Below are positions 1,492 through 38,155 of a stretch of 38,372 nt of DNA, piece after piece. The stretch is from Planctomyces sp. SH-PL62 (GTDB lineage: Bacteria > Planctomycetota > Planctomycetia > Planctomycetales > Planctomycetaceae): the NCBI GenBank assembly GCA_945905295.1, contig CAMDPX010000049.1, positions 1 to 38,372 of the forward strand, written 5' to 3'. Within the stretch, counting starts at the first letter, position 1; each line of letters begins with the position of its first letter. The translations under genes were made by a program, and so were the position numbers. The notes below the pieces were generated by a model. That model did not search any database. It was not told the origin of the DNA and saw only the letters and a list, made by a program, of their open reading frames with translations.

Positions 1492-1544
1492 GTGGAGCAC
1501 GTTTTCAACGTGCTCGTAACGGGCACGTTGAAAACGTGCCCCAC
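1492..1544. repeat. R4 inverted-repeat doublet
   Basis: Left arm 1492-1515 and right arm 1521-1544 are complementary at 22 of 24 positions across a 5-bp gap. Each arm is also a hairpin by itself (GCACGTT-TTC-AACGTGC in the left one). It sits between the divergent dehydrogenase and membrane-protein genes and creates false 5' extensions of both reading frames. A second R4 doublet is at 15744-15807. Confidence 0.9.
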
Positions 1545-1668
1545 TTCACGGCGGCTTCGCCCCTTTACGATTCTGCTGCGTCAGTCTCCAGATATCGCGG
1601 CGGAAGGTCTACCATCCGCCCGCTCCGAGCGAACCGCGTCTTTCAAGAAATTCCCTGTGCCGAAAACT

Positions 1669-2445
1669 ATGACCGATCACGTGCGACCTGGTGAGGTTTT
1701 TGAAATCGAACCGACCTCGAGCGGTCGGCATTGGCATATTCCGTGGTGGTTGCTGTTGGCGGTGGCGATTGCCGTGACGGAGTTGACGGCACACCCGGCG
1801 ATTGGGGTGGCAGTGTTTTGTCTGAAGTTCGGGCTGAACGACTGGCGCACGGCCGCGTGGCTCTGCCGTACTGATCCGTATCCGAAACGGTCACACACGA
1901 TCTGGTGGTTTCTGGTCGGTAGCGGTTTCTTGAAGATTTTCCTGATGTCGTCGATCGCGTTTCCGATACTCGCCGGCTGGTGGCACGTGATGACCAAACA
2001 GCCCGTGCGGCATGAAGTCCGCATGGCGATGACCATCGGCCTGGGGGGCATGTTCTTTTCGTTTGTGGTCAATCACATCGGCTTGGTCTTGGCTTCGCGG
2101 CGGCACGTGCGCGTCTGGCTGAATGGGAAACTGCACCGCTTTCGAGAGGGCAATGTTTGGCCCGTGCTGCTCTCTCGGCCGAATCGCTTGCGAGACATCC
2201 TCAATGGCAGCGCACTGCCCGCCATTCTCGCATTCACGATGGGGACGATTTTTCTGCTCGTCTTCGCCATGCAGAAAATGATTCGCCCGGCGATGATCAG
2301 TGCCGTGGTGGTCGTGGTGGCCAGCTTGATTCTGCTGGGGCACGCGATCTCCGTGAAACGGATCATGGCCCGCACATCGGAAGAATGCTGGGGCGATTTG
2401 CCGGAACTGGAACGGGAAGCGGAAGTGGAAGACTCGTTCGCATAG
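1669..2445 (+). CDS. Polytopic membrane protein, unknown function
   Basis: A 258-residue protein I do not recognise as a named family. It has about five hydrophobic segments: WWLLLAVAIAVTEL and the following AIGVAVFCL region, TIWWFLVGSGFLKIF, a GLGGMFFSFVVNHIGLVLA segment, ILAFTMGTIFLLVFAM, and MISAVVVVVASLILLGHAI. The C-terminus is acidic (ELEREAEVEDS) and probably cytoplasmic. I chose the ATG at 1669 (MTDHVRPGEVF) because upstream codons of the open frame come from repeat R4 and an intergenic stretch, and because the residues after 1669 read like a normal cytosolic N-terminus. It is followed after about 75 bp by the PRPP synthetase gene, which appears to have its own promoter. Function is unknown. 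Confidence 0.7.
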   Translation: MTDHVRPGEVFEIEPTSSGRHWHIPWWLLLAVAIAVTELTAHPAIGVAVFCLKFGLNDWRTAAWLCRTDPYPKRSHTIWWFLVGSGFLKIFLMSSIAFPILAGWWHVMTKQPVRHEVRMAMTIGLGGMFFSFVVNHIGLVLASRRHVRVWLNGKLHRFREGNVWPVLLSRPNRLRDILNGSALPAILAFTMGTIFLLVFAMQKMIRPAMISAVVVVVASLILLGHAISVKRIMARTSEECWGDLPELEREAEVEDSFA

Positions 2446-2461
2446 GTTCGCTTCTGGCTGC

Positions 2462-2489
2462 TTGAGTTCAATCCTCCGACCGATATCAT
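2462..2489 (+). promoter_or_regulatory. Putative sigma-70-type promoter of prs
   Basis: TTGAGT (2462-2467), a 16-bp spacer and TATCAT (2484-2489). The same layout, TTGAGA-17-TATCAT, precedes the small gene at 14353. If it is active, transcription starts near 2496. That makes the in-frame ATG at 2488 unusable and supports the start at 2521. The call rests on sequence match only. Confidence 0.4.
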
Positions 2490-2520
2490 GCGGCCCGACT
2501 TCTTCCGCTCTGAGGCCCAC

Positions 2521-3528
2521 ATGCCACCCGCTTCCTCGCGTCCTGACCTTTCCGGCCCACGAGCCATTCCGTTTCAGCCGCCGCAAGGGGATTTGGCGTT
2601 GCTCGCGGGATCGGCCAATCCCGTGCTGGCGCAGTCGATCGCGAATCACTTGGGCGTGCCGCTGGTGCCCAGCCGAGCACACGTCTTCAGCGAGGGGAAT
2701 GTCTTTGTCCGCGTTCGCGAGAACGTGCGCGGCCGCGATGTGTTCGTCATTCAAGGAGTCCATCAGCCGGTCAACGATAACTTCATGGAGTTGCTGTTCT
2801 GGATCGACGCGCTCAAACGAGCCAGCGTCGCGCAAGTCACCGCCGTGATCCCCTTCTTCAGTTACTCCAAGGCGGACAAGAAGGACGAACCGCGAGTCAG
2901 CATTCGCGCTCGCGTCTGTGCCGACTGCCTGGAAGCGGCGGGTTGCGACCGCGTGCTGACGATGGACCTGCACAGCCCGCAGATTCAAGGATTTTTCAGC
3001 ATCCCGGTCGATCACCTTTACGGCCGGCATGTGCTGTGCGATGCGATCAGCAAACTCAAGATCCCCGATTTGGTCGTTTGCAGCCCGGACGTCGGCTTCG
3101 CCAAGAGTGCGTCGCAATACGCGAAGATCCTCAACGTGCCTGTGGTCATCGGCAACAAACACCGCGCGGATCACGACGAGAATGCCGAGATTCTGGAAGT
3201 CATCGGCGATGTCGCCGGTAAGAATGTCGTCCTGGTCGACGACTTCACGATCACCGGCCGCACGCTGATTGGTATGGCGGACGCTCTGAAGCAGCGCGGC
3301 GCGAAAGACATCTATGCGGCGGTGACTCACGCCGTGCTCTCGAAGGGAGCCGCTCCGCGAATCGGCGAGAGTTCCATCAAACAGATGCTGATCACCAACA
3401 CCGTCGAAACTGCAACCGATCCGCTGCCGCCGAACATCACGGTCGTTTCGGTCGCTCCGTTTTTCGCCGAAGCGATCCGCTCGATTCATGACCGCACGAG
3501 CGTCAGCATGTTGTTCCCCGAACCGTAG
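2521..3528 (+). CDS. prs: Ribose-phosphate pyrophosphokinase (PRPP synthetase)
   Basis: Makes 5-phosphoribosyl-1-pyrophosphate from ribose 5-phosphate and ATP, feeding purine, pyrimidine, NAD, histidine and tryptophan synthesis in the cytoplasm. The frame shows the family blocks in order: LLAGSANPVLAQSIANHLGVPL near the N-terminus, the flexible-loop/ATP region SKADKKDEPRVSIRARV, the DRVLTMDLHSPQIQGFF block, and the PRPP-binding loop VVLVDDFTITGRTL. From the ATG at 2521 it is 335 residues, slightly longer than the usual ~315. An in-frame ATG at 2488 exists but overlaps a likely -10 element. SKADKKDEP replaces the more usual YARQDKKDRP, which suggests a divergent class. The stop is 18 bp before the ATG of the PSD1 gene, so co-transcription is possible but no functional link is evident. 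Confidence 0.93.
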   Translation: MPPASSRPDLSGPRAIPFQPPQGDLALLAGSANPVLAQSIANHLGVPLVPSRAHVFSEGNVFVRVRENVRGRDVFVIQGVHQPVNDNFMELLFWIDALKRASVAQVTAVIPFFSYSKADKKDEPRVSIRARVCADCLEAAGCDRVLTMDLHSPQIQGFFSIPVDHLYGRHVLCDAISKLKIPDLVVCSPDVGFAKSASQYAKILNVPVVIGNKHRADHDENAEILEVIGDVAGKNVVLVDDFTITGRTLIGMADALKQRGAKDIYAAVTHAVLSKGAAPRIGESSIKQMLITNTVETATDPLPPNITVVSVAPFFAEAIRSIHDRTSVSMLFPEP

Positions 3529-3546
3529 AACTTGAGGAGACCTGCG

Positions 3547-6672: not shown

Positions 6673-6727
6673 GTTTCCAAGGCACAGCGACCATCAAGTT
6701 GTTTCCTCTCTGTGGAGGTTTGAGACC

Positions 6728-6994
6728 ATGATGCCAACTCAGACATTGATTGACTCGATCTACTCCGAACGAGTGAAGCGCGCGAGAGTCACCGCGCCCG
6801 ACAAGAAGCTGATGGATGGTTTCTTCCTCTTTGAAGAATCGAGACGCTGGGCACTGGCTGGAATCCAAGCGGAGTTTCCTGAAGTCGATCCCTCTCAAGC
6901 AGAGCAGATTTTTTGCGAACGATTGAACCGGTTACGTCGCCGCGATGAACAGGATCTTTATCGACCGTTGGAGGTCACGCATGTTGAGCTATGA
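6728..6994 (+). CDS. Small conserved protein upstream of a nucleotidyltransferase
   Basis: An 88-residue soluble protein (MMPTQTLIDSIYSERVKRAR..). GGAGG at 6714-6718 lies 9 bp before the ATG at 6728; the second ATG at 6731 is an alternative start. It resembles, from memory, short proteins (about 80-90 residues, TQxLIDxIYxERVxRAR start, LxRLxxRLxxLRR-like end) that sit directly before nucleotidyltransferase genes in planctomycetes and cyanobacteria. The 3' end overlaps the next gene by 14 bp, so the two are translationally coupled. By position and size it could be the antitoxin-like or regulatory partner; no DNA-binding fold is obvious. The function is an inference from context. Confidence 0.8.
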   Translation: MMPTQTLIDSIYSERVKRARVTAPDKKLMDGFFLFEESRRWALAGIQAEFPEVDPSQAEQIFCERLNRLRRRDEQDLYRPLEVTHVEL

Positions 6995-11748: not shown

Positions 11749-11830
11749 CGCTCGTAGTGACCCGATTCCTCGGGTCGAAACCAGAAACGAGCCTCCTCCT
11801 CAGACCCGATGAATCGGGTCACTACGAGCG
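11749..11830. repeat. R5 inverted-repeat doublet
   Basis: Arms 11749-11776 and 11803-11830 (28 bp each, one mismatch) face each other across 26 bp. Each arm contains an inner palindrome, GACCCGA..TCGGGTC. The right arm overlaps the 3' end of the DJ-1-like gene: its stop codon (TAG on the minus strand, 11822-11824) and last codons lie inside the repeat. Confidence 0.92.
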
Positions 11831-13889: not shown

Positions 13890-13972
13890 ACGAGGCGGCG
13901 TATCGTAGCGCAGCGGAGGGAGGGCTTCCAGCAGGGGCCGGAGATGAACTGGTTATGCGGAACTGCGAAGGA

Positions 13973-14046
13973 GCCCGACGAATCGAAGGAGACGACGATT
14001 GATTCGCGCGTGAGTCGAATTCGTCGTCTCCTTCGATTCGTCGGGC
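13973..14046. repeat. R6 inverted-repeat doublet (glnA leader)
   Basis: Arms 13973-13998 and 14021-14046 (26 bp, perfect) are separated by 22 bp. The arm begins GCCCGACGAATC and ends GAGACGACGA. The doublet lies between the likely sigma-54 promoter and the glnA start, so the transcript would carry a strong hairpin. A second R6 copy is at 26383-26450. Confidence 0.93.
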
Positions 14047-14104
14047 ACTTCCACACAATCCGAATCCCATTCGCGCCAGCGTTCCGGCCAGGCAAGACAT
14101 TCCG

Positions 14105-15602: not shown

Positions 15603-15725
15603 TTGACCGGCCGACTGCCGAAAGCCGATTGCCGTGTTACCGTTTTTAGCTTCGGGAAAAGGGCCACGGCTGTCAGCCAACGGTCTCCGACCAGACGATG
15701 ATTCCGCGATCGCCACGCTCTTGGC

Positions 15726-15823
15726 CAGCCTGTTGAAAAAGTCGTGGAGCACGATTTCATCGTGCTCCTTCTCCGAAGAGATTGGGCACGTTGGAAACGT
15801 GCCCCACGTTTTTCAACAGGCTG
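15726..15823. mobile_element. 98-bp MITE-like element containing an R4 doublet
   Basis: Perfect 15-bp terminal inverted repeats, CAGCCTGTTGAAAAA (15726-15740) and TTTTTCAACAGGCTG (15809-15823), enclose an R4 doublet (15744-15767 and 15784-15807). TTGGC flanks both sides directly (15721-15725 and 15824-15828), consistent with a 5-bp target-site duplication. Ends of this type occur on IS elements, so a transposase elsewhere in the genome could move it. It lies between the OleA-like and second PSD1 genes, an otherwise featureless gap (15603-15888). Confidence 0.72.
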
Positions 15824-15888
15824 TTGGCCAGCGTGGCTACGGCCCGGTTCGCGGAATATCATCGCCGCCCAACGAGGAATGATGTGTC

Positions 15889-18429
15889 ATGAGCCGAGCC
15901 ATTCAGATTCTGCTGATCGCGCTGTTGCCCTGTGGGATGATCCGCGCGGCGGAACCGACACTCGATCCAGAGTCGATCAAGTTCTTCGAGTCGAAAGTCC
16001 GGCCGGTATTGATCGCACGCTGCTTGAAGTGTCATGGCCCCGCGCAGCAAAAGGGGCAACTACGTCTCGACTCGCGCGAGGCCGTGCTCAAAGGTGGCGA
16101 GAGCGGCGAGGTTGTCGTCAGTGGCAAACCGGGCGAGAGTCTGCTCATCGAAGCGATCAATCGGACTGGCCTCGAAATGCCACCGGACACGCCGCTGAAA
16201 GAAAATGAGATCGCCGCGCTGACCGAATGGGTGCGGCGCGGTCTGCCGTGGCCGACAGTCGATGGCAAGTCGCGAACGCTCGAACCGGGCGGCAAAGGGA
16301 TCACCGATGCCGACAAGCAATACTGGGCTTTCCAACCGATCAAAAATCCAGCCGTCCCCGATTTGAAATCTCAAATCTCAAATCTCAAATCTCAGATTCG
16401 CAATCCGATCGACCAGTTCATCGTCGCGCGACTTCAAGCCGACGGCTTCACTCCTGCCTCCGAAGCCGACCGCCGCACGCTAATCCGACGGCTGACGTTC
16501 GACCTTACTGGCCTGCCGCCAACGCCGGTCGAGATCGCTGAGTTTGAAAACGACTCGCGCGACGATGCCTATGAACGCCTCGTTGATCGCCTGCTTGACA
16601 GCCCGGCCTACGGCGAGCGTTGGGCGCGGCATTGGCTCGACCTCGTGCGGTACGCCGAGTCCGACGGATATCGCAAAGACGATTATCGGCCGCATGCTTG
16701 GCGGTATCGTGATTACGTCGTTCGCTCTTTCCAAACCGACAAGCCGTTCGATCGGTTTGTCCAAGAGCAAATTGCCGGTGACGAGATCGACCCCGACAAC
16801 CCCGATGCGCTCGCGGCGACCGGTTACTTGCGGCTGTCGCTCTACGAATACAACCAACGCGATGCTCGCACTCAGCGAAACGAAATTCTCAACGACATCA
16901 CTGACGTGACTGGCGATGTGTTTTTGGGTTTCGGGATGGGCTGTGCTCGGTGTCACGACCACAAGTTCGATCCGATCTTGCAGAAGGATTATTTCCGTCT
17001 GCGAGCCTTCTTCGCCGGCATCCTGCCGCAAGACGCGAAGCCGCTGGCCACGAAGGCCGAGATCGAAGCTCATCAAGCAAAGCATGCCGAGTGGGAAGCG
17101 AAGACGGCCGACATCCGCGCACAACTCGCTGAGTTAGAGAAGCCGCACTTCGCCAAACTGAAAGCCAGTGCGATCTTCAAATTCCCGGCCGAAATTCAAA
17201 CGATCTTGAAGACCGACGATGTTCGCCAACTGACGCCGCTCGACCGACAGCTCTACGACTTGGCGTATCGCCAAGTGCAGTACGAGCACGATCAAATTGG
17301 CACGAAGCTCAAGGACGAGTCCAAGAAGAAGTGGGACGAACTGCGAGCGGAGTTGAAGAAGTTCGACGACCTCAAGCCCGCCGCGCTGCCGATCGGTTAT
17401 GCGGTGACGGACGTCGGCCCCATCGCTCCGCCGACCGTGATTCCCGGTGACAAATCTGAAACCGATATCGTTCCCGGCCCGCTCTCGGTCCTCGACGATT
17501 CGCAGACGAAGATTGTGCCGCTCGTCACTTCTCCGAATTCCTCTGGCCGGCGAGCCGAGTTGGCTCGTTGGCTGACTTCGCCCGAAAATCCGCTGACGCC
17601 GCGCGTGATGGTCAATCGCATTTGGCAGTATCACTTCGGCAAAGGTTTAGTGGCGACATCGAGCGACTTCGGCCGCCTTGGCGAATCGCCCAGCCATCCA
17701 GAGTTGCTCGATTGGCTGGCGAGCCGCTTCGTAGGTCAGGCTTTCCAGCCTGACCCAAATACGCAATCGACGTCGAACGGGGTCAGGCTGGAAAGCCTGA
17801 CCTACAAGCCGTGGTCGTTCAAATCGCTGCATCGTTTGATCGTGACGTCTGCGACATACCGGCAATCGGCAGCGCATCCCGATGCTGACAAGCAAGCTCT
17901 CAAAGACCCCTCCAATCGGTTGCTGTGGCGAGCCAACATCCGACGGCTCGATGCCGAACAGATACGCGACTCGATGCTGCTGGTCTCCGGCAAGCTCGAC
18001 ATGACTTCCGGAGGGCCGAGCGTCCCTGCCTCGAAACCGCGCCGGTCGATCTTCACTGAGCAGCGCCGCAACTCACCCGATCCACTGTTGGACGTCTTCG
18101 ATTCGGCCGACGGATTTTCGAGTACTCCCGAACGCAACGTGACTACGACGCCAACTCAGGCTTTGCTGATGATCAACAGCAAAGACTCGCTGGCCCGCGC
18201 TGCGGAGTTTGCTCGCCGAGTGAAATCGGAATCCGGCGACGATCGGGAGTCGCAGATCGCGCTGGCGTACCGACTCGCCTTCGGTCGCGACGTGACCGAA
18301 GCGGAAATCAAAACGGCTCTCGACTTCTTCAACCGCCAAGCCGCCCGCAACGCCGCAGCCGCTTCGTCCGTGTTGTCTGATTTCTGTCATGTGCTGCTGA
18401 ACTCGAACGAGTTCTTGTATGTGGATTGA
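15889..18429 (+). CDS. Secreted PSD1/planctomycete cytochrome C protein (DUF1549-DUF1553), copy 2, with an in-frame repeat insertion
   Basis: 846 residues. Signal peptide MSRAIQILLIALLPCGMIRA; cytochrome domain with CLKCH at 45-49 and the LRLDSREAVLKGG block; DUF1549 from about 160 to 360, including WARHWLDLVRYAESDGY and ARCHDHKFDP; a charged helical stretch from about 385 to 480; DUF1553 from about 555 to 815. It lacks the large lectin-like insert of copy 1. Two repeats are read through: the AAATCTC tract (KSQISNLKSQI) before DUF1549, and doublet R2 (17731-17805), which adds exactly 25 residues (VGQAFQPDP..VRLESLTYK) inside DUF1553 between LLDWLASRF and PWSFKSLHRLI. The reading frame remains intact. 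The EF-hand/propeller gene begins 3 bp after its stop. Confidence 0.94.
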   Translation: MSRAIQILLIALLPCGMIRAAEPTLDPESIKFFESKVRPVLIARCLKCHGPAQQKGQLRLDSREAVLKGGESGEVVVSGKPGESLLIEAINRTGLEMPPDTPLKENEIAALTEWVRRGLPWPTVDGKSRTLEPGGKGITDADKQYWAFQPIKNPAVPDLKSQISNLKSQIRNPIDQFIVARLQADGFTPASEADRRTLIRRLTFDLTGLPPTPVEIAEFENDSRDDAYERLVDRLLDSPAYGERWARHWLDLVRYAESDGYRKDDYRPHAWRYRDYVVRSFQTDKPFDRFVQEQIAGDEIDPDNPDALAATGYLRLSLYEYNQRDARTQRNEILNDITDVTGDVFLGFGMGCARCHDHKFDPILQKDYFRLRAFFAGILPQDAKPLATKAEIEAHQAKHAEWEAKTADIRAQLAELEKPHFAKLKASAIFKFPAEIQTILKTDDVRQLTPLDRQLYDLAYRQVQYEHDQIGTKLKDESKKKWDELRAELKKFDDLKPAALPIGYAVTDVGPIAPPTVIPGDKSETDIVPGPLSVLDDSQTKIVPLVTSPNSSGRRAELARWLTSPENPLTPRVMVNRIWQYHFGKGLVATSSDFGRLGESPSHPELLDWLASRFVGQAFQPDPNTQSTSNGVRLESLTYKPWSFKSLHRLIVTSATYRQSAAHPDADKQALKDPSNRLLWRANIRRLDAEQIRDSMLLVSGKLDMTSGGPSVPASKPRRSIFTEQRRNSPDPLLDVFDSADGFSSTPERNVTTTPTQALLMINSKDSLARAAEFARRVKSESGDDRESQIALAYRLAFGRDVTEAEIKTALDFFNRQAARNAAAASSVLSDFCHVLLNSNEFLYVD
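16366..16394. repeat. AAATCTC heptanucleotide repeat inside PSD1 gene 2
   Basis: Four near-perfect AAATCTC units encoding KSQISNLKSQI at the boundary between the cytochrome and DUF1549 domains. This is the same location as the tract at 3988-4014 in the other PSD1 gene. Confidence 0.8.
17731..17805. repeat. R2 inverted-repeat doublet inside a coding region
   Basis: Arms 17731-17756 and 17780-17805 (26 bp, perfect) around a 23-bp loop, 75 bp in all. It is read in frame as 25 codons inside the DUF1553 part of PSD1 copy 2. The arm begins GTAGGTCAGGCTTTCCAGCC. Confidence 0.95.
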
Positions 18430-18432: not shown

Positions 18433-20475
18433 ATGTTTCACCGCGCTGCCCTTGTTGAAACATTCTGGCGAGCGGGGCGGCGTCAGCCCCCCGGTTCCTG
18501 GATCGAATACACCGGGGGGCTGACGCCGCCCCGCTCGCCGGTTTCCTGTCTGGCCGTGCTGTGTTCGATGTGCCTGCTTGCCACACCGTTCTTGCGTGCC
18601 GACGAACCGGAGACCGCGCCGACGGACGCTCAGATCAAAGCGTTTGAGAAAGCGGATCAAAACAACGATGCCAAGTTGTCCGTCGAGGAATTCATCGTCA
18701 ACCGCGGCGCGGCCGAGTTCGCCAGGCGGGACTTCAAGTTGTTCGACTTCAACGATGACGGTGTGCTCAAGCTGGAGGAGTTCGCGTGTGTGCGGACGGA
18801 ATCCTCCTTCGATCAACCGGGTGTGATGCCCAGCTATCTGGCGAGCTGTGCCGATCAAGCGGTTGCCGCGCTCGATAAGGCATTCGGAAGCTGGGATCAG
18901 AACCCGGAACTCGAAGTGAATCGGGGAACGTTCATCGCGGCAATCGTCCGAGATCTCGGAAACAACGTGCTACCCGTCAATCTGCAAGAGGTGGACCCCG
19001 ACAACAATCGCAAAGTGAGCCGCAAGGAAGCTCGGCGGTTCGTCGAGAACCAGTTGGGAATTCGTCGCGGCGACGGCAAGCTGTTGCAGTTTCCGAATGG
19101 AAACGTCGCCAACTACGCCGTGTTCCTGCACGCCGATGCCGATCGGAATGATGTCCTCGATCGAACCGAGTTTCTCAAGCGGACCTACGGTGATCCCAAG
19201 CTGGTCGCCGAGGAATTTGCCAAGCTGAACACCGACGGCGACGAGGTAATCTCGTTCGACGAATTCTGCCGCCTGCCGGTGCGCGGCTTCGCCGATCCGG
19301 TGGCGGAGTTTCGGCATCTGGATGCCAACCTGGATGCTCGTGTGGACCCGCTCGAACTGCTGACGAGGGCTCCCGAATGGCAACGAAAACTCGCCGAGCA
19401 CACGTTTCCCGGATTTGATCTCGATCAAGATGGCGTACTGTCGCTGTCGGAATACCGGCTGACTCCGATCGCCAACAAGGTGCAGCCTTGGGCGGTGGTG
19501 CTCAGTGATCTCGATGACGACGAAGCGCTCTCGTTTGCCGAGTTCAAGTTTGAGCCGAAGCGTTTCCCGTTGCTGTGGCTGCTCTACTTTCACCGGCTGG
19601 ACGTGAATCGCGACGAGTCTCTCTCGTTGAACGAGTATTACTTCAAAACGAAATCGCCGATCGAGTTCTTCGTCATGAACGGCGACGGCACCGGCTGGCA
19701 GCACTACTTCAAGTTTGAAGGACGATCGAGCGTCGGCTCACCCGCGGTGTCGCCGAACGGAAAGATGCTGGCGTTCGATTCGCACCTGAGAAATGACCTC
19801 AGCACAAACACGGTCTATGTGATGGATCTGGTGGCCAAGAATCCGCACGCCATTTGTGTCGGGATGATGCCAACCTGGTCCCCCGACGGAAGACGCTTGG
19901 CCTGCTCGCGGAGCGGCACGAACAGCACTCCCTACGGAATCTGGACGATCGGTACAGACGCCGATGACGCACAACACATTGCACCGGGTTGGGGAGCTCA
20001 ATGGTCCCCCGACGGCAAGCGGATCGCGTTTTACTCCGGCCTCGAAATCCGAGCGTTCAATGTCGAAACGAAAGAAACCGAAATCCTGTTGCCGGCCGAC
20101 GAGAATCCCTATCGGCAGATCTTCTGGAACATGTCCTGGTCTCCCGACAGCAAGCAACTCGGCCTGAGAGGTCTGAAGCCCGACAACGTGACGCAAGAGT
20201 TTGCGACTCTCGCCCCGACCGCGACACCGAAGCTGAAAACGCGAGCGACCAACAAGGTTCAAGTTGCCGAGGACTCCGCATGGCATCCCAACGGCGAACG
20301 AGTCATCTTCGCGATGCACTGTCCCGAACGCGTTCACCTGCAGTTGTACGAATTCAATCCGCAGACCGACGATCCTCCGAAGTTGCTCAAGGGCCAAGAC
20401 GCCACTCGCAACAACAGCAGTCCTTGTTGGACCCCAGACGGCAAACGCCTGATTGTGGTCAGCGTGGCGGACTGA
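18433..20475 (+). CDS. Secreted EF-hand and PD40 beta-propeller protein
   Basis: 680 residues. After a hydrophobic export segment (CLAVLCSMCLLATPFLRADEP, residues about 39-58) come about nine EF-hand-like loops, for example ADQNNDAKLSVEEF, FDFNDDGVLKLEEF, ADADRNDVLDRTEF, LNTDGDEVISFDEF, FDLDQDGVLSLSEY and LDVNRDESLSLNEY. These should bind calcium. From about residue 430 there are six PD40/TolB-type blades (SPNGKMLAFDS, WSPDGRRLACS, WSPDGKRIAFYS, WSPDSKQLGL, WHPNGERVIFA, WTPDGKRLIVV), enough for a six-blade propeller. Doublet R1 (18467-18539) is read through between the start and the export segment. It supplies the Arg just before the hydrophobic core. The gene lies 3 bp after PSD1 copy 2, so the products may act together outside the cytoplasm. 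The true start is uncertain. Confidence 0.85.
   Translation: MFHRAALVETFWRAGRRQPPGSWIEYTGGLTPPRSPVSCLAVLCSMCLLATPFLRADEPETAPTDAQIKAFEKADQNNDAKLSVEEFIVNRGAAEFARRDFKLFDFNDDGVLKLEEFACVRTESSFDQPGVMPSYLASCADQAVAALDKAFGSWDQNPELEVNRGTFIAAIVRDLGNNVLPVNLQEVDPDNNRKVSRKEARRFVENQLGIRRGDGKLLQFPNGNVANYAVFLHADADRNDVLDRTEFLKRTYGDPKLVAEEFAKLNTDGDEVISFDEFCRLPVRGFADPVAEFRHLDANLDARVDPLELLTRAPEWQRKLAEHTFPGFDLDQDGVLSLSEYRLTPIANKVQPWAVVLSDLDDDEALSFAEFKFEPKRFPLLWLLYFHRLDVNRDESLSLNEYYFKTKSPIEFFVMNGDGTGWQHYFKFEGRSSVGSPAVSPNGKMLAFDSHLRNDLSTNTVYVMDLVAKNPHAICVGMMPTWSPDGRRLACSRSGTNSTPYGIWTIGTDADDAQHIAPGWGAQWSPDGKRIAFYSGLEIRAFNVETKETEILLPADENPYRQIFWNMSWSPDSKQLGLRGLKPDNVTQEFATLAPTATPKLKTRATNKVQVAEDSAWHPNGERVIFAMHCPERVHLQLYEFNPQTDDPPKLLKGQDATRNNSSPCWTPDGKRLIVVSVAD
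18467..18539. repeat. R1 inverted-repeat doublet inside the signal-peptide region
   Basis: Perfect 29-bp arms 18467-18495 and 18511-18539 around a 15-bp loop. It is read as RAGRRQPPG..TGGLTPPRS near the N-terminus of the EF-hand protein. Other R1 copies: 36405-36488 (doublet), 126-148 and 38177-38205 (single arms). Confidence 0.95.
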
Positions 20476-20476: not shown

Positions 20477-20497
20477 AAAAAGACTCCCGACCCCTTC
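20477..20497. repeat. R8 single arm
   Basis: The 21 bp starting AAAAAGACTCCCGACC match the outer part of the right arm of the R8 doublets at 30087-30113 and 31188-31213. No partner arm is found nearby. It begins 1 bp after the stop of the EF-hand/propeller gene. Confidence 0.75.
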
Positions 20498-26382: not shown

Positions 26383-26450
26383 ATTCGTCGTCTCCTTTCA
26401 TTCGTCGGGCACTTTCAAATTCGCCCGACGAATGAATGGAGACGACGAAT
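26383..26450. repeat. R6 inverted-repeat doublet
   Basis: Arms 26383-26410 and 26423-26450 (28 bp, one mismatch) around a 12-bp loop. The family is that of 13973-14046, in inverted order: here the GGAGACGACGA ends lie outside. It lies between the coiled-coil gene and the ABC transporter gene, where it could act as a terminator-like hairpin. Confidence 0.92.
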
Positions 26451-29148: not shown

Positions 29149-30009
29149 ATGTCGTCACAGATCGAACACTTTGTCGTCTCCGACGGCTACCCGCTGAGCA
29201 CACGGCACTGGAGGCCGGAGCAATCGCCGCGCGGGTTTGTCGTTGCGCTGCACGGCATTCAGAGTCACGGTGGCTGGTACGAATACTCGTGCCGACAAAT
29301 GTGCGACGCGGGTTACGACGTGCTGTTTGTGGATCGGCGCGGATCGGGAATGAATGCTTCGCGGCGCGGCGATGCCCCGCATGGCGACCGGTTGATTAAC
29401 GACGTCGTTAGCGTCTTGGCGGAGGTGCGGCGGCGACGCGATCAAGTCGATCCACAAATTCCGGTCGTGCTGCTCGCGGTCAGTTGGGGTGGGAAGTTGG
29501 CCGCGATCACAGCGGCTCGGCGGCCGGAGTTGGTCGATGCGCTGGCGTTGCTGTATCCGGGGCTTTGCTCGCGAGTGCAGCCGACTGCGATGCAGCGAGC
29601 GCGGTTGTGGCTGGCGAGGAAGCTCGATATCCGCAATAAGCGCATCGAGATTCCGCTCAATGATCCTGCGCTCTTCACTGCGGAACCACGCTGGCAGGAA
29701 TTCATTCGTCTCGATCCGCTGACGCTGCGCGATGTGACTTCGGGGTTCTTACTGGCCCATCAAGATTTGACGCGTGAATCATTGGCGGCGGCCTCTGCAA
29801 TTCACTGCCCGACGCTGCTGATGCTCGCGGGGCGGGACCGGATCATCGACAACGCCGCGACGAAGGATTGGGCACGCCGGCTTGGCACACGCGAATTCAT
29901 GCTGCACGAGTACCCGGACGCGCAGCACACGTTGGAGTTCGAACCGCATCCGGAGCGGTTTGTCGCGGACTTGTTGGCGTGGTTGGAGTCGGTTTCGAGG
30001 CGCACGTGA
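29149..30009 (+). CDS. Alpha/beta hydrolase (lysophospholipase/monoglyceride lipase-like)
   Basis: 286 residues. The hydrolase core is clear: VVALHGIQSHGGWYEY (oxyanion loop HG), DVLFVDRRGSGMNASRRGD, and the nucleophile elbow LLAVSWGGKLAA with Ser112. The acid is likely the Asp of LAGRDRIID and the base the His of YPDAQHTLEFE near residue 264. The elbow reads A-x-S-x-G instead of the usual G-x-S-x-G, which is a minor but real deviation. No signal peptide. It is the third gene of the exporter-DUF1854-hydrolase unit, so it may prepare or degrade the exported compound; that is an inference. Its stop codon is directly followed by doublet R8. Confidence 0.86.
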   Translation: MSSQIEHFVVSDGYPLSTRHWRPEQSPRGFVVALHGIQSHGGWYEYSCRQMCDAGYDVLFVDRRGSGMNASRRGDAPHGDRLINDVVSVLAEVRRRRDQVDPQIPVVLLAVSWGGKLAAITAARRPELVDALALLYPGLCSRVQPTAMQRARLWLARKLDIRNKRIEIPLNDPALFTAEPRWQEFIRLDPLTLRDVTSGFLLAHQDLTRESLAAASAIHCPTLLMLAGRDRIIDNAATKDWARRLGTREFMLHEYPDAQHTLEFEPHPERFVADLLAWLESVSRRT

Positions 30010-30010
30010 C

Positions 30011-30113
30011 GGGGTCGGGAGTCTTTTTCAGGTCGGGGTATTGGCGTGCGACATCGGATCGGGATTCGAGATTGATTGGCCATTTGCCCGACCTGAAAAA
30101 GACTCCCGACCCC
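30011..30113. repeat. R8 inverted-repeat doublet (left of bracketed gene)
   Basis: Perfect 27-bp arms 30011-30037 and 30087-30113 around a 49-bp loop. The arm starts GGGGTCGGGAGTCTTTTTC. It begins one base after the stop codon of the hydrolase gene. Together with the copy at 31110-31213 it brackets the gene at 30264-31079. Confidence 0.95.
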
Positions 30114-30263
30114 TTCTGCGCTGCACGAAAAATGGCCGGTGGCGTTCTCGGAAGCTCGCCGATAACATCCCCGCCCCGCTGACGGATAGCGGCATTTGTT
30201 GGGAGTAAACAGAGGGCACGGAGGTCACCATTTCGGATCACAAACCCGGTGGGACCAGGTGCG

Positions 30264-31079: not shown

Positions 31080-31109
31080 TTTGGATGCGGCTTCGCGGGA
31101 CCGCGTGAC

Positions 31110-31213
31110 GGGGTCGGGAGTCTTTTTCAGGTCGGACAAATGGTCGTTGGATGTCTGTTCGCGAGGGGTTGCCATTTGGACGCGACGCCGACCTGAAAAA
31201 GACTCCCGACCCC
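31110..31213. repeat. R8 inverted-repeat doublet (right of bracketed gene)
   Basis: Perfect 26-bp arms 31110-31135 and 31188-31213 around a 52-bp loop whose sequence differs from that of the left copy. The arms and the flanking CGTGAC (left) and TTC (right) are shared with 30011-30113. It lies between the helical-protein gene and the protease gene. Confidence 0.95.
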
Positions 31214-31235
31214 TTCGGTACGAGTGAGGGCTCTC

Positions 31236-32363: not shown

Positions 32364-32379
32364 CTGGGATGCTTCAGGG

Positions 32380-32455
32380 TTTCGTAGCCGAGCTCGCCAG
32401 AGCTTGGGATGTTCTCACGGGCGGCACCCAATCTCTGGCGAGATTGGCTACGAAA
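32380..32455. repeat. R7 inverted-repeat doublet
   Basis: Arms 32380-32408 and 32427-32455 (29 bp). Each arm is a hairpin around GCCA/TGGC, with stem GAGCTC/GAGCTT (one G-T) in the left and AATCTC/GAGATT in the right arm. The outer ends TTTCGTAGCC/GGCTACGAAA pair perfectly. It lies 17 bp after the protease stop codon. Confidence 0.9.
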
Positions 32456-32548: not shown

Positions 32549-32863
32549 ATGAATCAGAAAAAGCCAGCGCCGATGCATTCCGCCATTCCTCGCAAGGTCT
32601 GTCCGGTGTGCGGCCAAGCGTCCTATTCGCTGGCCGGGATTCATCCGCAGTGTGCCGAGGCTCAGGCCGACGAAAAGCGGATGAAGAAGGTCAAAGCCAA
32701 GAAGGCTGACACTCCGATCGTGCTCGACGCGACCCCTTCCGCTTGGCGAAAGCCTTGTCCGAAGTGTGGCACTCATGTGCATGTCCGTAAGGCGCAGTGC
32801 GAGTGCGGGCATAAGTTCGTGGTCCAGAAGACGAAATCGGGCTTTGGCGACGACGACGAATAG
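32549..32863 (+). CDS. Zinc-ribbon protein, unknown function
   Basis: 104 residues from the ATG at 32549 (MNQKKPAPMHS), with AGG 6-8 bp upstream. Two metal-binding parts: CPVCGQASYSLAGIHPQC near residues 18-35 and CPKCGTHVHVRKAQCECGHKF near 72-92, with a Lys-rich linker between them (KRMKKVKAKKAD). The acidic end GFGDDDE is typical of small cytosolic zinc-ribbon proteins. The frame is open to 32369, but that part runs through repeat R7 and lacks conservation features. It may bind RNA or DNA. I do not recognise a named family. Confidence 0.75.
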   Translation: MNQKKPAPMHSAIPRKVCPVCGQASYSLAGIHPQCAEAQADEKRMKKVKAKKADTPIVLDATPSAWRKPCPKCGTHVHVRKAQCECGHKFVVQKTKSGFGDDDE

Positions 32864-33203
32864 TCTGCCTACGACCTTGTCCCCGGCTGCCCCCTCTTTA
32901 GGCGGACTGAATTCGCCGACGCAATTCTTGGACGACGAACTCCAGAATCTGTCGAGCCGCTGAACCGTGCAAAAGTCCTAGAGAATTGGGCATTGCGGCA
33001 CGAACGCTCATCGCAACTCGTCCTAGAGTCCACACGTTGCTCACCACGTGTGTGTGACTCGGCACTGAGTTTGCTTCTCCGCAGACTTCGCCTCCGTGGC
33101 TGGCGCTCGGCAAGTCGGAGAACCAATCTGCTCGACCGACGACCGTCTCGTGCGAGGCAAAACTTATTGTGCCGCCGACGGTGATCGAGTCAGGTAGGAC
33201 GTT
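32864..33203. other. Intergenic region upstream of nirB
   Basis: 340 bp with no gene that I can support. It holds a sigma-54-like promoter at 33059-33075 and a GC-rich leader of about 120 bp before the nirB start. CACACGTTG..CACGTGTGTG forms an imperfect inverted repeat around 33031-33056, just upstream of the -24 element, and might be an activator site. Confidence 0.5.
33059..33075 (+). promoter_or_regulatory. Putative sigma-54 (-24/-12) promoter of nirB
   Basis: The site reads CGGCACTGAGTTTGCT: GGCAC-N5-TTGCT with the invariant GG (33061-33062) and GC (33073-33074) 10 bp apart. It matches the consensus TGGCACG-N4-TTGCW at all but two positions. Transcription would begin near 33086. Nitrogen-limitation control of nitrite assimilation by sigma-54 and NtrC is well known in other bacteria. 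Confidence 0.5.
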
Positions 33204-36200
33204 ATGGATTTAGTAGCAACTCCCGTCGGCATCCTTGGTGCCGCAATGAGCACCGAAGTGAAACCTGTCACAAATACTCTGCCGTCTGACTTACCGAAAA
33301 AGACGGTCGTCGTGATCGGCAACGGCATGGTCGGCCAACGCTTCTGCGAGAAGCTGGTCGAGTTCGACAAGACGAATCAATTTCGCATCGTGACCTTCTG
33401 CGAGGAACCTCGCGCCGCTTACGACCGCGTCGGGTTGACGAGCTTCTTTGCTCACCGCGATGCCGAAAAGCTGATGATCGCGCGAATGGGTTGGTATCAC
33501 GATCACGGCGTCGAGATTCATCTCGGCGACCGCGCGTGTGCAGTCGATCGCGAACAGAAAATCGTCCGCTCACAGAAGGGCGTCGAGATCAAGTACGACT
33601 TCGTCGTTCTGGCCACTGGCTCGTATCCATTCGTGCCGCCGGTGCCGGGCTTCAACAAGCAAGGCGTGTTCGTTTACCGCACGATCGAAGACCTGAATCA
33701 CATCATCGAGTATTCCAAGAAGTCGAAACGCTGTGCGGTGATCGGTGGCGGATTGCTCGGCCTGGAAGCGGCGAAGGCGGCGTTTGACCTGGGATTAGAA
33801 ACGCACGTCATCGAGTTCGCTCCGCGCCTGATGCCCCGGCAGATCGACGACGCCGGCTCACGCACGTTGGTCAAGAAGATCGAGTCGCTGGGCGTGAAGG
33901 TGCATCTCAACAAGTCCACGAAAGAGGTTCACGGCAACGGCGTCGTTGAGCGAATGGAATTCAACGACGGCATGACGCTCGACGTGCAGATGATCATTGT
34001 TTCCGCCGGCATTCGTCCGCGCGATGACCTCGCGAAAGAGAGCGATATCCACGTCGGCCCGCGGGGCGGAATTACGGTCAACGATCAACTGCGAACCTCT
34101 GATCCGGACGTTTATGCCATCGGCGAGTGCGCCTTGCATCGGGGCATGATTTACGGGTTGGTCGCTCCTGGCTACGAGATGGCCGAAATCGTTGCCGCCA
34201 ATTTGACCGGCGACGAGCGTCATTTCACGGGGACTGATCTCTCGACGAAGCTCAAGCTGATGGGCTGCGATGTCGCGTCGTTCGGCGATTACGAAGCGCC
34301 TGCCGAGCGTGCGGTGCCGCTGACTTTTGAAGACCCGTTTGGCGGCGTCTACAAGAAGCTGATCTTCAGCCTCGACGGCACAAAGTTGCTCGGCGGCGTG
34401 CTGGTGGGTGATGCGTCCGAGTACGGTACGTTTTCGATCCTGGCGAAAGGGACGCAGCCTTTGCCGTGCAAGCCGCATGAGTTGCTGGTTGGCAAGACGG
34501 GCGGAGCATCGCTCGGCGGTGTCGAGGCGATGCCGGATGAAGCGCAGATTTGCTCATGCAACAACGTCAGCAAGGGGGCGATCTGCCATGCGATTCGCGA
34601 AGGGAGTCTCGACTCGGTCGGCGCTGTGAAAAGCTGCACGCGAGCCGGTACCGGCTGCGGCGGCTGCATGCCGCTGGTGACGGACCTGTTCAACGCCGAA
34701 CTCAAGAAGGCGGGCAAGGTCGTCGTCAATCATCTCTGCGAACATTTTTCGTTGTCGCGCACCGAGCTGTTTGCAGTCGTGAAAATCAAAGAACTCAAGT
34801 CGTTCGATGCGGTAGTTCGGCAATGCGGGAAAGGAAATGGCTGTGAGATCTGCAAGCCAGCAGTGGCGTCGATCCTCGCGAGCCTCTGGAACGAAGTCAT
34901 CGTCAAAGATGAGCACGCGACGTTGCAGGACACGAACGATCGGTTCCTCGCGAACATGCAGCGCGGCGGGTTGTACTCGGTCGTTCCGCGCGTCCCCGGT
35001 GGCGAGATCACTCCGGACAAATTGATCGCGATCGCCGAAGTGGCCAAGGACTATAGCCTCTACACGAAAATCACCGGCGGACAACGGATCGACTTGTTCG
35101 GTGCTCAGGTCCAAGACCTGCCGGACATCTGGGAACGCTTGGGGGCGGCGGGACTCGAAAGCGGACACGCTTACGGCAAGGCGCTGCGAACGGTGAAGAG
35201 CTGCGTTGGCACAACATGGTGCCGGTACGGCGTGCAGGACTCGGTCGGTTTCGCCGTGCGAGTTGAGAACCGATACAAGGGAGTGCGTGCTCCTCACAAA
35301 GTAAAAATGGCGGTCAGCGGCTGCGTGCGCGAGTGCGCCGAGGCTCAAGGCAAAGACGTCGGTCTCGTCGCGACCGAGAAGGGATACAACCTCTACGTCT
35401 GCGGCAACGGTGGAGCAAAGCCTCGCCACGCGGACTTGCTGGTGGGGGACATCGACGAAGAGACGGCGATCAAATTCATCGACCGCTTCTTCATGTACTA
35501 CATCATGACCGCCGACCGCCTGACGCGCACGTCGGTCTGGTGCGACAAGCTCGAAGGGGGCATCGAACACATCCGCGACGTTGTGGTGCATGACAAGCTG
35601 GGGCTTGGCGCGGAACTCGAAGCGATGATGCAGCGGCTGGTCGATACCTACGAATGCGAATGGGCCGCCGTCGTCAAAGATCCGGAGAAACGCAAACGCT
35701 TCAGTCAGTTCGTCAACACGGACGAAACGGAGTCTTGCATCGAGATCGTTCCCGAACGGGGCCAAGCGCGACCGGAGTTCTGGCCAAATGAATTTGTGTC
35801 GCTGGAACAGTTCCGTGAGATGAGTGTTGAACCTGTCGAAAGTAGGTTGGGACTCCGTCCCGACCAGGCAGATATGGCCGACAACCTTGAGACGGTCGGG
35901 ACGGAGTCCCAACCTACGAACGATTGGATCTCGGTCGGCAAAGTCTGGGACTTTCCGAAAGACGGCGGTGCGACGATCAAGTACGGAGCCGTGCAGATCG
36001 CGGTCTTCAACTTCTCGGTACGTGGCGAGTGGTACGCGACTCAGAACATGTGCCCGCACAAGAAGGCGTTCGTGCTCGGACGCGGCATTCTTGGAGACGC
36101 GGCCGGAGTGCCGAAGGTCGCCTGTCCGCTGCACAAGAAAACGTTCTCGCTGCAAACGGGCGAGTCCCTGCAAGGCGAGGAATATCACATCCGCACGTTC

Positions 36201-36359
36201 CCGGTGCGAATCGACGGGGATGATGTGCTGCTCGAACTTCCGCCAACCGAATTGCTCGATCTCGAGTTGGCAACGGAAATCGGCTGCCGCTTGGCAACCT
36301 CGTGTCAGACGAGTTGCCAGTCCGAGTCATCGCAGCCGCGCGAATTGTTGGAAGTGTAG
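33204..36359 (+). CDS. nirB: Assimilatory nitrite reductase, NirB-NirD fusion
   Basis: 1051 residues. It reduces nitrite to ammonium with six electrons in the cytoplasm. Order: FAD/NAD(P)H oxidoreductase domain (VVVIGNGMVGQRFCEKL; CAVIGGGLLGLEAAKAA) to about 410; BFD-type [2Fe-2S] domain with CSCNNVSKGAIC..CTRAGTGCGGC near 440-495; a second BFD-like stretch (CGKGNGCEICKPAV); sirohaem/4Fe-4S domain with SCVGTTWCRYG and SGCVRECAEAQ giving the four Cys ligands; and, from about 910, a NirD-type Rieske domain (MCPHKK..CPLHKKTF). NirB and NirD are usually separate genes; here the joint is translated doublet R3 (35842-35917). Start 33204 has AGG 5 bp upstream; ATG 33246 (MSTEVKPV) is possible. A sigma-54-like promoter precedes it. 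Confidence 0.95.
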   Translation: MDLVATPVGILGAAMSTEVKPVTNTLPSDLPKKTVVVIGNGMVGQRFCEKLVEFDKTNQFRIVTFCEEPRAAYDRVGLTSFFAHRDAEKLMIARMGWYHDHGVEIHLGDRACAVDREQKIVRSQKGVEIKYDFVVLATGSYPFVPPVPGFNKQGVFVYRTIEDLNHIIEYSKKSKRCAVIGGGLLGLEAAKAAFDLGLETHVIEFAPRLMPRQIDDAGSRTLVKKIESLGVKVHLNKSTKEVHGNGVVERMEFNDGMTLDVQMIIVSAGIRPRDDLAKESDIHVGPRGGITVNDQLRTSDPDVYAIGECALHRGMIYGLVAPGYEMAEIVAANLTGDERHFTGTDLSTKLKLMGCDVASFGDYEAPAERAVPLTFEDPFGGVYKKLIFSLDGTKLLGGVLVGDASEYGTFSILAKGTQPLPCKPHELLVGKTGGASLGGVEAMPDEAQICSCNNVSKGAICHAIREGSLDSVGAVKSCTRAGTGCGGCMPLVTDLFNAELKKAGKVVVNHLCEHFSLSRTELFAVVKIKELKSFDAVVRQCGKGNGCEICKPAVASILASLWNEVIVKDEHATLQDTNDRFLANMQRGGLYSVVPRVPGGEITPDKLIAIAEVAKDYSLYTKITGGQRIDLFGAQVQDLPDIWERLGAAGLESGHAYGKALRTVKSCVGTTWCRYGVQDSVGFAVRVENRYKGVRAPHKVKMAVSGCVRECAEAQGKDVGLVATEKGYNLYVCGNGGAKPRHADLLVGDIDEETAIKFIDRFFMYYIMTADRLTRTSVWCDKLEGGIEHIRDVVVHDKLGLGAELEAMMQRLVDTYECEWAAVVKDPEKRKRFSQFVNTDETESCIEIVPERGQARPEFWPNEFVSLEQFREMSVEPVESRLGLRPDQADMADNLETVGTESQPTNDWISVGKVWDFPKDGGATIKYGAVQIAVFNFSVRGEWYATQNMCPHKKAFVLGRGILGDAAGVPKVACPLHKKTFSLQTGESLQGEEYHIRTFPVRIDGDDVLLELPPTELLDLELATEIGCRLATSCQTSCQSESSQPRELLEV
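35842..35917. repeat. R3 inverted-repeat doublet at the NirB-NirD junction
   Basis: Perfect 24-bp arms 35842-35865 and 35894-35917 around a 28-bp loop. It is translated as a linker (SRLGLRPDQ..VGTESQPT) directly between the end of the NirB part and the Rieske domain, which begins at DWISVGKVWDF. The arm starts GTAGGTTGGGACTCCGTCCC. Confidence 0.95.
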
Positions 36360-36364
36360 GTCGC

Positions 36365-38155
36365 ATGATGTCTACTGCATTTCCAGAAACCGCCGCATCC
36401 GACAGGCGAGCGGGGGGTGTCAGCCCCCCGGTGGATCGTATGTCTTTTGACTCAGAACCAACCGGGGGGCTGACGCCCCCCGCTCGCCAGGAAACTGATG
36501 GGCAGACGCTGCTCGCTCGTTTGCTTTCCGATCAGCAACAACTCACTGCCGTCGAAGCATTCTCCCGACAGCACGACGGTGGTGAGTTGCCCGCGCAATC
36601 GCGGTACTACAAGTCGCTCATCCCCGCGAGTCCTCCTGGTCCCGGCCAGCAGTTCGCGTTTGAGGTTGATCTGGATCGCTGTTCCGGCTGCAAGGCATGC
36701 GTGACGGCGTGTCACTCACTCAATGGGCTCGACCAGAGCGAAACGTGGCGCGACGTCGGCATGCTCATTGGCGGCACGACCGAGCTACCCGTGTTGCAGC
36801 ACGTCACGACCGCGTGCCATCACTGCATCGAGCCGGGCTGCATGAGTGCGTGCCCGGTGGACGCTTACGAAAAAGATCCGGTGACCGGCATCGTGAAGCA
36901 TCTCGACGATCAATGCTTCGGCTGTCAGTACTGCATTCTGGCCTGCCCGTATGAAGTGCCGAAGTATCACAGCGGACTCGGCATCGTCCGCAAGTGCGAC
37001 ATGTGCTCGGATCGGCTGACCCACGGCGAAGCTCCAGCTTGCGTTCAGGCTTGCCCTCATGAGGCGATTGCGATTCGGATTGTGAATATCTCGCAAGTCG
37101 TCGAAGACTCTGAAGCGAACGTGTTTCTGCCGGCCGCTCCCGATCCGCAAATCACGTTGCCGACGACAACGTACAAATCGAAAAGGGTCTTTCCTCGAAA
37201 TCTGCTGCCGGTCGATTTCCATTCGGTGTCGGCTCAGCATCCGCACTGGCCGCTGATCGTGATGCTGGTGCTGACGCAGTTCTCCGTCGGAGCGTTCTTG
37301 GTCGGCCTCGGTTTGGAAGGTCTGTTGTCGGCGGAATTGGTCTCGGCGATCCGGCCGCTGCATTCGTTGAACGCGCTGGTGTTCGGACTGCTCGCGCTGG
37401 CGGCGAGCACGCTGCACCTCGGCCGTCCGCAGTACGCCTGGCGAGCGGTCATCGGACTGCGGCACTCGTGGCTGTCGCGCGAGATCGTCGTATTCGGAGC
37501 CTTCGCCGGAGCCGCGATTCTGTACGCGATCGGAAGCTGGTTCGGCTTGGAGTCAGTCGGCTTGGGACCATACTTGCACGACGCGGTTGGCTGGTCCGTT
37601 GGAGCCTTCGGTCTGCTCGGCGTGTTTTGTTCGGTGATGATCTACGCCTTCACGCAACGCGCGTTCTGGAGTTTCCCACTGACAGCCACTCGTTTCGTTT
37701 TGACATCGGCGCTGCTGGGCATCGCCGCGACGTGGGTGACGTTGCTGGCCCTGGCCGTCATCAACAACGGCCCGGTGACGCGATTGCTAGTTCGCCGAGG
37801 CGATCTCGTCTGCGAAGCGCTGATGATCGTGGCCGTGACCAAACTGGGGTTCGAGGCGTCGATCTTCCGGCATCTGCTGCGGAAGCAAACGACGCCGCTG
37901 AAGCGCTCGGCCTTGCTGATGACCGGCCCGTTGGTCCGTTGGACTCAAGCACGTTTCGCCCTTGGATTGATCGGTGGCCTGCTGATGCCGGCCATCCTGC
38001 GATCACTGATCGGCGACGTGGCACCGTCGTCGCCGTCGATGCTGGCAACATCGACCGCATTGTTCGTGGCCTGCTTGGCCGGAGAATTGTTGGAACGGTA
38101 TCTGTTCTTCGCGGCGGTCGCGGCACCACGTATGCCCGGAACGTTGAGAGGTTGA
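36365..38155 (+). CDS. Fused DmsB/DmsC-type ferredoxin and quinol-oxidising membrane anchor
   Basis: 596 residues, starting 5 bp after the nirB stop with AGGT just upstream; the second ATG at 36368 is equally possible. The first half is a DmsB/NrfC-type protein with four 4Fe-4S cysteine clusters: CSGCKACVTACH, CHHCIEPGCMSACP, CFGCQYCILACP, and KCDMC..CVQACPHEA. The second half has about eight membrane helices and matches DmsC/NrfD-type anchors (LIVMLVLTQFSVGAFLVGLGL, SLNALVFGLLALAASTLHLG). Such fused proteins feed electrons from quinol to a molybdopterin oxidoreductase; next to nirB the likely partner is an assimilatory nitrate reductase, which is not in the window. Doublet R1 (36405-36488) is read through as RAGGVSPPV..TGGLTPPA near the N-terminus, before the conserved part. 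Confidence 0.9.
   Translation: MMSTAFPETAASDRRAGGVSPPVDRMSFDSEPTGGLTPPARQETDGQTLLARLLSDQQQLTAVEAFSRQHDGGELPAQSRYYKSLIPASPPGPGQQFAFEVDLDRCSGCKACVTACHSLNGLDQSETWRDVGMLIGGTTELPVLQHVTTACHHCIEPGCMSACPVDAYEKDPVTGIVKHLDDQCFGCQYCILACPYEVPKYHSGLGIVRKCDMCSDRLTHGEAPACVQACPHEAIAIRIVNISQVVEDSEANVFLPAAPDPQITLPTTTYKSKRVFPRNLLPVDFHSVSAQHPHWPLIVMLVLTQFSVGAFLVGLGLEGLLSAELVSAIRPLHSLNALVFGLLALAASTLHLGRPQYAWRAVIGLRHSWLSREIVVFGAFAGAAILYAIGSWFGLESVGLGPYLHDAVGWSVGAFGLLGVFCSVMIYAFTQRAFWSFPLTATRFVLTSALLGIAATWVTLLALAVINNGPVTRLLVRRGDLVCEALMIVAVTKLGFEASIFRHLLRKQTTPLKRSALLMTGPLVRWTQARFALGLIGGLLMPAILRSLIGDVAPSSPSMLATSTALFVACLAGELLERYLFFAAVAAPRMPGTLRG
36405..36488. repeat. R1 inverted-repeat doublet inside a coding region
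   Basis: 28-bp arms 36405-36432 and 36461-36488 with one mismatch around a 28-bp loop, 84 bp in total (28 codons). It is read in frame near the N-terminus of the DmsB/DmsC-type fusion, ahead of the first conserved block. Confidence 0.93.

Follow-up and report, generated by a model that had tools for sequence, protein, structure and literature searches.

The window analysed here is a 38,372 bp stretch, contig C49, of the draft genome of Planctomyces sp. SH-PL62 (G000; 8.6 Mb in 476 contigs), and it carries 13 inverted-repeat doublets that fall into eight families, named R_A to R_H. Some of the doublets lie between genes and others within them: the core of the R_H doublet (at 35842) falls in the linker joining the nitrite-reductase and Rieske domains encoded by gene 33204-36359, and the R_G doublet at 17731 falls between two matched stretches of DUF1553. 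The doublets were located with a repeat search and a fuzzy scan of the arms, which reproduced the inventory of an earlier note on this DNA, namely 13 doublets of eight families, five of them occurring twice; the note had read them as REPINs, pairs of facing repetitive extragenic palindromic (REP) sequences. The five families occurring twice are R_A, R_B, R_C, R_F and R_E, the last counted with the related outer palindrome at 15712-15837, and R_D, R_G and R_H occur once. Ten of the 13 doublets were folded as single-stranded DNA, and every one of them outperformed all of its 200 shuffles (z -7.6 to -12.4). A fixed-threshold inverted-repeat scan, which is strict and retains 10 of the 13 window doublets, detected 108 inverted repeats in 438 kb of G000 compared with none in one third-order Markov copy; this control, together with reversed-pattern counts of zero (below), rules out chance or low complexity as the origin of the doublets. 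No Rfam family was found in the window at gathering scores.

The most unusual feature of the doublets is the presence of different palindromes at orthologous sites in related species. Orthologous DNA was taken from same-genus genomes (the G-numbered sisters of G000), and turnover was counted at 15 sites, giving 69 site-by-species comparisons with both flanks (36 of 105 pairs lacked a usable flank); the count leaves out a second copy in G009 and G017, which belongs to another genus, and sites outside the window were picked for a two-sided coding score or for several doublets per gene, not at random. The 69 comparisons revealed the same family in 16, another palindrome in 15 (11 at coding sites), a short allele in 28 and a long allele without a palindrome in 10. 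Control positions 300-900 bp away held a palindrome in only 3 of 447, compared with another palindrome in 15 of 69 at doublet sites. At L060:17606, none of the nine species is empty: R_G is present in G000 and G010, the GTAGGATGGGCAC family in G002, G006, G007 and G009, and R_C in G005, and G003 and G011 have other inserts, with word repeats seen by eye, that were scored as long without a palindrome. This codon site has received five kinds of insert, of which three count as palindrome families in the test applied.

Similar exchanges were found in the window. The R_G doublet at 17731 is common to G010, with two other palindromes at this site in G001 and G007, long alleles without a palindrome in four sisters and short alleles in three. 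Both R_A doublets have an orthologous copy in G010; in G007, a 355-nt stretch with another palindrome occupies the site at 30008 and an R_D-type doublet the same intergenic site at 31107, where G002 has another palindrome and G003, G006 and G011 are short. The R_E doublet at 32380 likewise has its orthologue in G010, a GTAGGGTGGGAC (fam24-type) palindrome replaces it in G007, and G002, G006, G009 and G011 are short. At 35829 (R_H), five sisters are short, two are long without a palindrome and G002 has a different in-frame palindrome, and at 36405 the R_C doublet is orthologous in six sisters, with a long allele without a palindrome in G004. In G010 and G007, the loop of the R_C doublet at 18467, whose arms have partly diverged, houses a nested REPIN of fam3, a family related to R_C. 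Empty sites in relatives, whose absence would have refuted the earlier reading, were also found: all 8 sisters compared are short at the R_A site L060:16503, as are 3 of 3 sisters with both DNA flanks at the R_H site L054:6527, and the 126-bp nest at 15712-15837 is absent at 10 sister loci (nine species) with both flanks, some of which retain a single hairpin. The possibility that a loop is host DNA lying between two separate arm insertions finds no support at the two sites with a clean empty allele, where the loop is missing as well.

To gauge how often doublets lie inside genes, we used a genome sample of 1.238 Mb (the window plus 60 stretches of 20 kb), in which the strict scan detected 295 doublets, or 238 per Mb. 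Coding calls were based on a home-made hexamer score, and overlap with an open reading frame (ORF) near its 5' end was not taken as proof of a coding doublet. Between genes lay 168 doublets, 47 overlapped a gene edge and 80 were inside an ORF; 46 of the 295 were in frame with a coding signal on both sides. The 80 doublets inside ORFs (27%) compare with 80% by random placement, a threefold depletion that becomes fivefold when only the 46 with a two-sided coding signal are counted. Intragenic copies are depleted, yet numerous. Peptides encoded by the families recur, for example RLGLRPD...VGTESQPT for R_H and GQAFQPD...VRLESLTY for R_G. In one 5.9 kb gene (L095:9440-15334) there are four doublets, each from a different family (R_H, R_C2, fam3 and the CCTTTGG type), and other palindromes are present in G010 or G002 at two of these four sites.

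Table 1. Doublets and single arms in the window (TIR, terminal inverted repeat).
Feature	Position	Remarks
R_C arm, single, partial	about 126..148	
R_F doublet	1489..1547	REP pair with GTGG tag and 1 nt loop; at an edge common to two ORFs
R_D doublet	11749..11830	GTAG-tagged REP pair
R_B doublet	13964..14055	core 13973-14046; family without assigned transposase
Outer palindrome	15712..15837	R_E-related by our own grouping, 79% complementary; interrupted by R_F doublet
R_F doublet	15744..15807	nested in loop of the 15712-15837 palindrome
R_G REPIN	17731..17805	in frame inside PSCyt/DUF1549-DUF1553 gene 15889-18429
R_C REPIN	18467..18539	near 5' end of ORF 18433-20475 (start codon uncertain)
R_A arm, single, partial	about 20477..20497	
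R_B doublet	26383..26450	intergenic
R_A TIR doublet	30008..30116	
R_A TIR doublet	31107..31216	intergenic
R_E doublet	32380..32455	
R_H REPIN	35829..35930	core 35842-35917; in frame, gene 33204-36359
R_C REPIN	36405..36488	probably coding, N-terminal part of ORF 36302-38155
R_C arm, single	38177..38205	

All eight families are repeated elsewhere in the genome. Allowing at most one mismatch, the sample contains 52 R_A, 26 R_B, 68 R_C, 33 R_D, 18 R_E, 41 R_F, 15 R_G and 29 R_H arms, corresponding to about 12-55 per Mb (R_D about 27, R_B about 21), and the reversed pattern of each family gave none. Exact cores counted over the whole of G000 number 589 for R_C (293 forward, 296 reverse), 346 for R_A and 167 for R_H, with no match to the reversed patterns; the doublets are multi-copy and none is unique, which would have refuted the earlier reading had it been so for each. 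Among 119 genomes, the R_A core is present in 12 and the R_H core in 15, with nearly all copies within one genus, where the number of R_A copies ranges from 0 to 346. Single-linkage clustering of the 295 doublets gave 67 clusters, 37 of them with at least two members, although some unlike families were merged (cluster 0, for example) and the number of families is therefore rough. An R_C arm was also noticed within the first 45 bases of five G000 contigs (C25, C30, C13, C18 and C7), and R_C repeats at contig ends may be a cause of assembly fragmentation.

The arms are not all of one form. Leaving R_B aside, the remaining seven families supply 104 pairs of adjacent arms on opposite strands in the sample, and a single order is seen in all 104. 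The outer foot of the hairpin arms reads GTAG in R_D, R_E, R_G and R_H and GTGG in R_F; these five families, with facing REPs, a GT[AG]G tag and 15 to 41 arms in the sample, share these features with REPINs. R_C and fam3 have hairpin arms that lack the tag. The R_A arm, on the other hand, is a TIR that forms no hairpin and is not a REP; it reads GGGGTCGG, one base from GGGGWSAS, a motif that related GGGGTCAG families fit. R_B is of no recognised form. The view of the doublets as facing REPs thus holds for most families, R_A being a TIR of the type found around TIRYTs (TIR-flanked Y1 transposases) and R_B untypical.

Transposases flanked by the arms were identified for several families. Y1_Tnp (PF01797) has 13 matches in G000. 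R_A doublets lie on both sides of one of these genes (C115:20611-21309; 233 aa, HUH motif HWH), and this TIR-flanked Y1 gene, with TIR dimers elsewhere in the genome, is the arrangement of a TIRYT. R_H arms surround two 271-aa Y1 copies (C225 and C147), and further Y1 loci of G000 bear other genome families (fam8, fam24 and fam6, for example). Ten congeners were searched for partners of the orphan families, and the flanks of 70 of their 74 Y1 matches were read. In G010 as well as in G007, a Y1 gene is bracketed by R_G doublets together with fam30, a close variant. G007 also has a Y1 gene, at a contig end, with single R_C-type arms on either side, and in G010 (C2) a Y1 gene is bracketed by fam3 arms. 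Locus L145 contains one R_F doublet, but not in an enclosing arrangement. Four of the eight window families, two in G000 and two in sisters, are therefore known with a transposase flanked by their own arms. G000 itself has an R_C2-type relative of the R_C enzyme, which is split over two frames and lies among its own R_C2-type doublets (C374:1717-2204, L341). Of five Y1 proteins checked, four scored above the Pfam Y1_Tnp cut-off, and the NCBIfam REP-associated and IS200 models matched all five below cut-off. The open frame of the R_H transposase (L041 and L042, the C225 and C147 copies) carries the R_H peptide VGTESQPT near its start, and judging from this peptide the gene may contain its own REPIN in, or just before, its 5' end.

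The association of R_A with its enzyme extends beyond the genus. Relatives of the R_A enzyme number 104 in GTDB contigs, from Planctomycetota and several other phyla, and 65 of the 80 kept loci were surveyed for TIRs, 15 near a contig end being left out. A flanking TIR scoring at least 14 was found at 52 of the 65 loci compared with 0 of 111 shifted controls; among the loci with a flanking TIR, GGKGHC was present in 45 and GGKGWCNG in 32. The narrow R_A tag was detected upstream of eight of the loci, downstream of seven and on both sides of five, and in 0 of 204 control stretches.

Arms and loops behave differently. For paralogues with arms at least 95% alike, likeness of the loops was compared with that of shuffles, giving 0.508 versus 0.472 for R_C (65 pairs), 0.593 versus 0.571 for R_A (32 pairs) and 0.374 versus 0.375 for R_H (15 pairs). 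Loops are retained among copies of the TTGGTAGC family (0.947) and in a sub-group of R_F. Ageing of a copied REPIN as the sole cause of unlike loops is doubtful, given arms that are nearly identical and loops close to shuffles. Orthologous loops do align. In 16 same-family orthologue pairs (six from 36405 and two from the nested 18467 doublet, with three window doublets giving no comparison), differences were found at 67 of 884 arm sites, 93 of 414 loop sites and 533 of 3129 flank sites; because the arms change less than loops and flanks, they are held nearer to type while the loops drift. At 36405, inspection by eye shows matching changes on both sides of the R_C hairpins in G006, which leave their pairing intact.

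Palindromes nested within others account for 16 of the 295 doublets compared with 19 of 4138 intergenic controls, and about nine of the 16 are of one composite type; insertion targeted to loops gains little support as a general rule from such numbers. The composite type (L044:532, L049:12972, L060:19767 and others) has CTGACTCTCCGAG or GACGAGTCACTCCG outer arms around an inner TTGGTAGC or CGTGGAGCACG palindrome, and its loops are conserved, unlike those of other families.

Taken together, the doublets are very probably non-autonomous mobile palindromes of several unrelated families in one host, each family having its own Y1-HUH enzyme and selection sieving the insertions. Most would be REPINs, consisting of two facing REP hairpins with the tag outward, and R_A would be a mini-element with the TIRs of a TIRYT at its ends. 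Copying, now or formerly, would in each family be the work of its own single-domain Y1-HUH transposase, which, by analogy with known TnpA_REP and IS200 enzymes, would act on single-stranded DNA, recognising the hairpin or TIR there and inserting copies elsewhere. Gene-breaking insertions would be lost, leaving copies in intergenic DNA or, in frame, at places in proteins that tolerate them; such places may be hit repeatedly, so that one family comes to replace another there. Loops would drift, while arms may be kept to type by selection for mobility, homogenisation or both.

Several observations weigh against this interpretation. Mobility is read from presence and absence between species, not from observed movement. 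The filled allele at L054 also lacks some bases of the empty alleles, and a target duplication was not seen at the two junctions inspected by eye. Among the 13 loci of G000 and the 70 of 74 sister loci, arms of R_B, R_D, R_E or R_F were not found to enclose a Y1 gene, and the transposase assignment by flanking arms, which holds for R_A, R_H, R_G and R_C, is incomplete for these four families. The G010 and G002 drafts yielded no exact R_A transposase despite 148 and 123 exact R_A arms, respectively, and the R_C-like transposase of G000 is frame-broken. Near-unrelated loops between near-identical arms are also contrary to simple copying of whole REPINs.

Repeated occupation of the same site need involve no attraction: if few places tolerate inserts and selection clears the rest, different families would meet at the same places, an account to which we give a somewhat better than even chance. 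The interdomain linker at 35842, the position of 17731 between two DUF1553 stretches and the depletion of doublets inside ORFs are consistent with tolerance alone. The excess of nests over the intergenic control, to which the composite type contributes about nine cases, and the fam3 REPIN inside the 18467 loop of two sisters argue in the other direction.

A second alternative concerns R_B and the word-repeat palindromes (CCTTTGG and GGAATGACGAA types), which may be REPIN look-alikes that arose by another process, such as template switching or another transposase; we consider this a little less probable than even. Unlike REPINs, with their fixed arm order, tag and REP-associated tyrosine transposase (RAYT), R_B arms occur in both orders (10 pairs and 3 pairs in the sample) and carry no hairpin tag, and at the loci read neither R_B arms nor word repeats were seen to enclose a Y1 gene. 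On the other hand, R_B resembles the other families in size, copy number (about 21 arms per Mb) and context, and at 26383 the sole comparable sister, G007, is short, G010 having other sequence and six sisters being not comparable. Word-repeat palindromes (GGAATGACGAATGACGAA, CCTTTGGTCCTTTGAG) were also observed in open frames (L073:3947, 5033, 5606 and 7272; L095:14654), and no Y1 partner for them was noticed among the loci read.

Palindrome sites could also serve as docks, in which an existing hairpin, even one within a protein gene, would attract a further hairpin borne by a transposase, and the newcomer would either go into the loop of the old hairpin or take its place; site and frame would persist while family, loop and peptide turn over, and arms would be refreshed in each round. 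We regard this as rather unlikely. If true, selfish DNA would be the means by which proteins swap segments of about 20-35 residues.

We consider it quite unlikely that the hairpins are host elements (terminators, RNA stability elements or gyrase sites) under host selection and not mobile DNA: such a role is consistent with arms that vary less than flanks, with the paired changes seen by eye at 36405 and with most doublets lying between genes or at their edges, but not with 46 of 295 doublets inside coding genes, sister sites that are short or hold an unrelated palindrome (28 and 15 of 69), R_A copies varying so widely between congeners and four families that flank their own transposase.

Mobile palindromes of the REPIN/RAYT kind are already known, and the finding is less new than first thought. 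The suggestion in the earlier note that such a mixture is undescribed was too strong: the available sections of PMC3733652 describe several REP families coexisting in R. baltica and in O. terrae, REPs in Planctomycetes, intragenic REPs that insert 20-30 residues into proteins, two Xanthomonas whose recB carries different REPs at roughly one site, and TIR-flanked RAYTs, some of whose TIRs, though not all, have the GGGGWSAS motif. The GTAG REPs treated there share with the present families the GTAG/GTGG tag, head-to-head dimers, several families per genome and intragenic inserts; in comparison with those sections, the present case adds switching at several sites across up to ten congeners. R_A shares with the TIRYT/TIRtron of the same source a transposase with TIRs starting GGGGTC and many gene-less TIR dimers, and differs in its 346 exact arms in one genome, some inside genes, and in being one base off the GGGGWSAS motif.

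The REPIN/RAYT system of Pseudomonas fluorescens SBW25, as far as the available part of PMC3116915 describes it, likewise has head-to-head REP hairpins with conserved ends, a less conserved spacer with compensatory changes, hundreds of doublets, and REPIN groups adjoining specific RAYTs. By comparison, a single genome here holds at least eight families, and several dozen by clustering, with many in-frame copies in genes, and the loss of spacer likeness is stronger, the spacers of most tested families being hardly above shuffles. The R_C- and fam3-type transposases (L302, L320 and L330) have a common WLPGDxRG motif near the N-terminus and, on comparison by motifs rather than by class profile or tree, share with class 3 TnpA_Y1 (PMC6006769, available part) a WT or WA motif, Y----Q in L320 and L330, the CTGA foot in fam3, high copy number and a planctomycete host; they differ in Y---Q, found in L302 and a relative in G001, and in the lack of a CnGA foot in R_C. 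Rickettsia palindromic elements (RPEs) also lie in frame in protein genes. CGTC-tagged repeats, including RPEs, are described in PMC3733652 (available part) as having no known dedicated transposase, whereas a Y1 partner was found here for four of the eight families of the window. We found no description of repeated same-site exchange of families across a genus in the open-access literature.

Doublet density, coding copies and same-site turnover are the features worth following. If the sample is typical, scaling predicts about 2,000 doublets in the 8.6 Mb genome, some 320 of them deep inside genes, which calls for caution from gene callers and assemblers. With a dozen drafted congeners, both the insertion of REPINs, together with the likeness of their arms, and selfish DNA as a source of protein stretches become testable in this genus.

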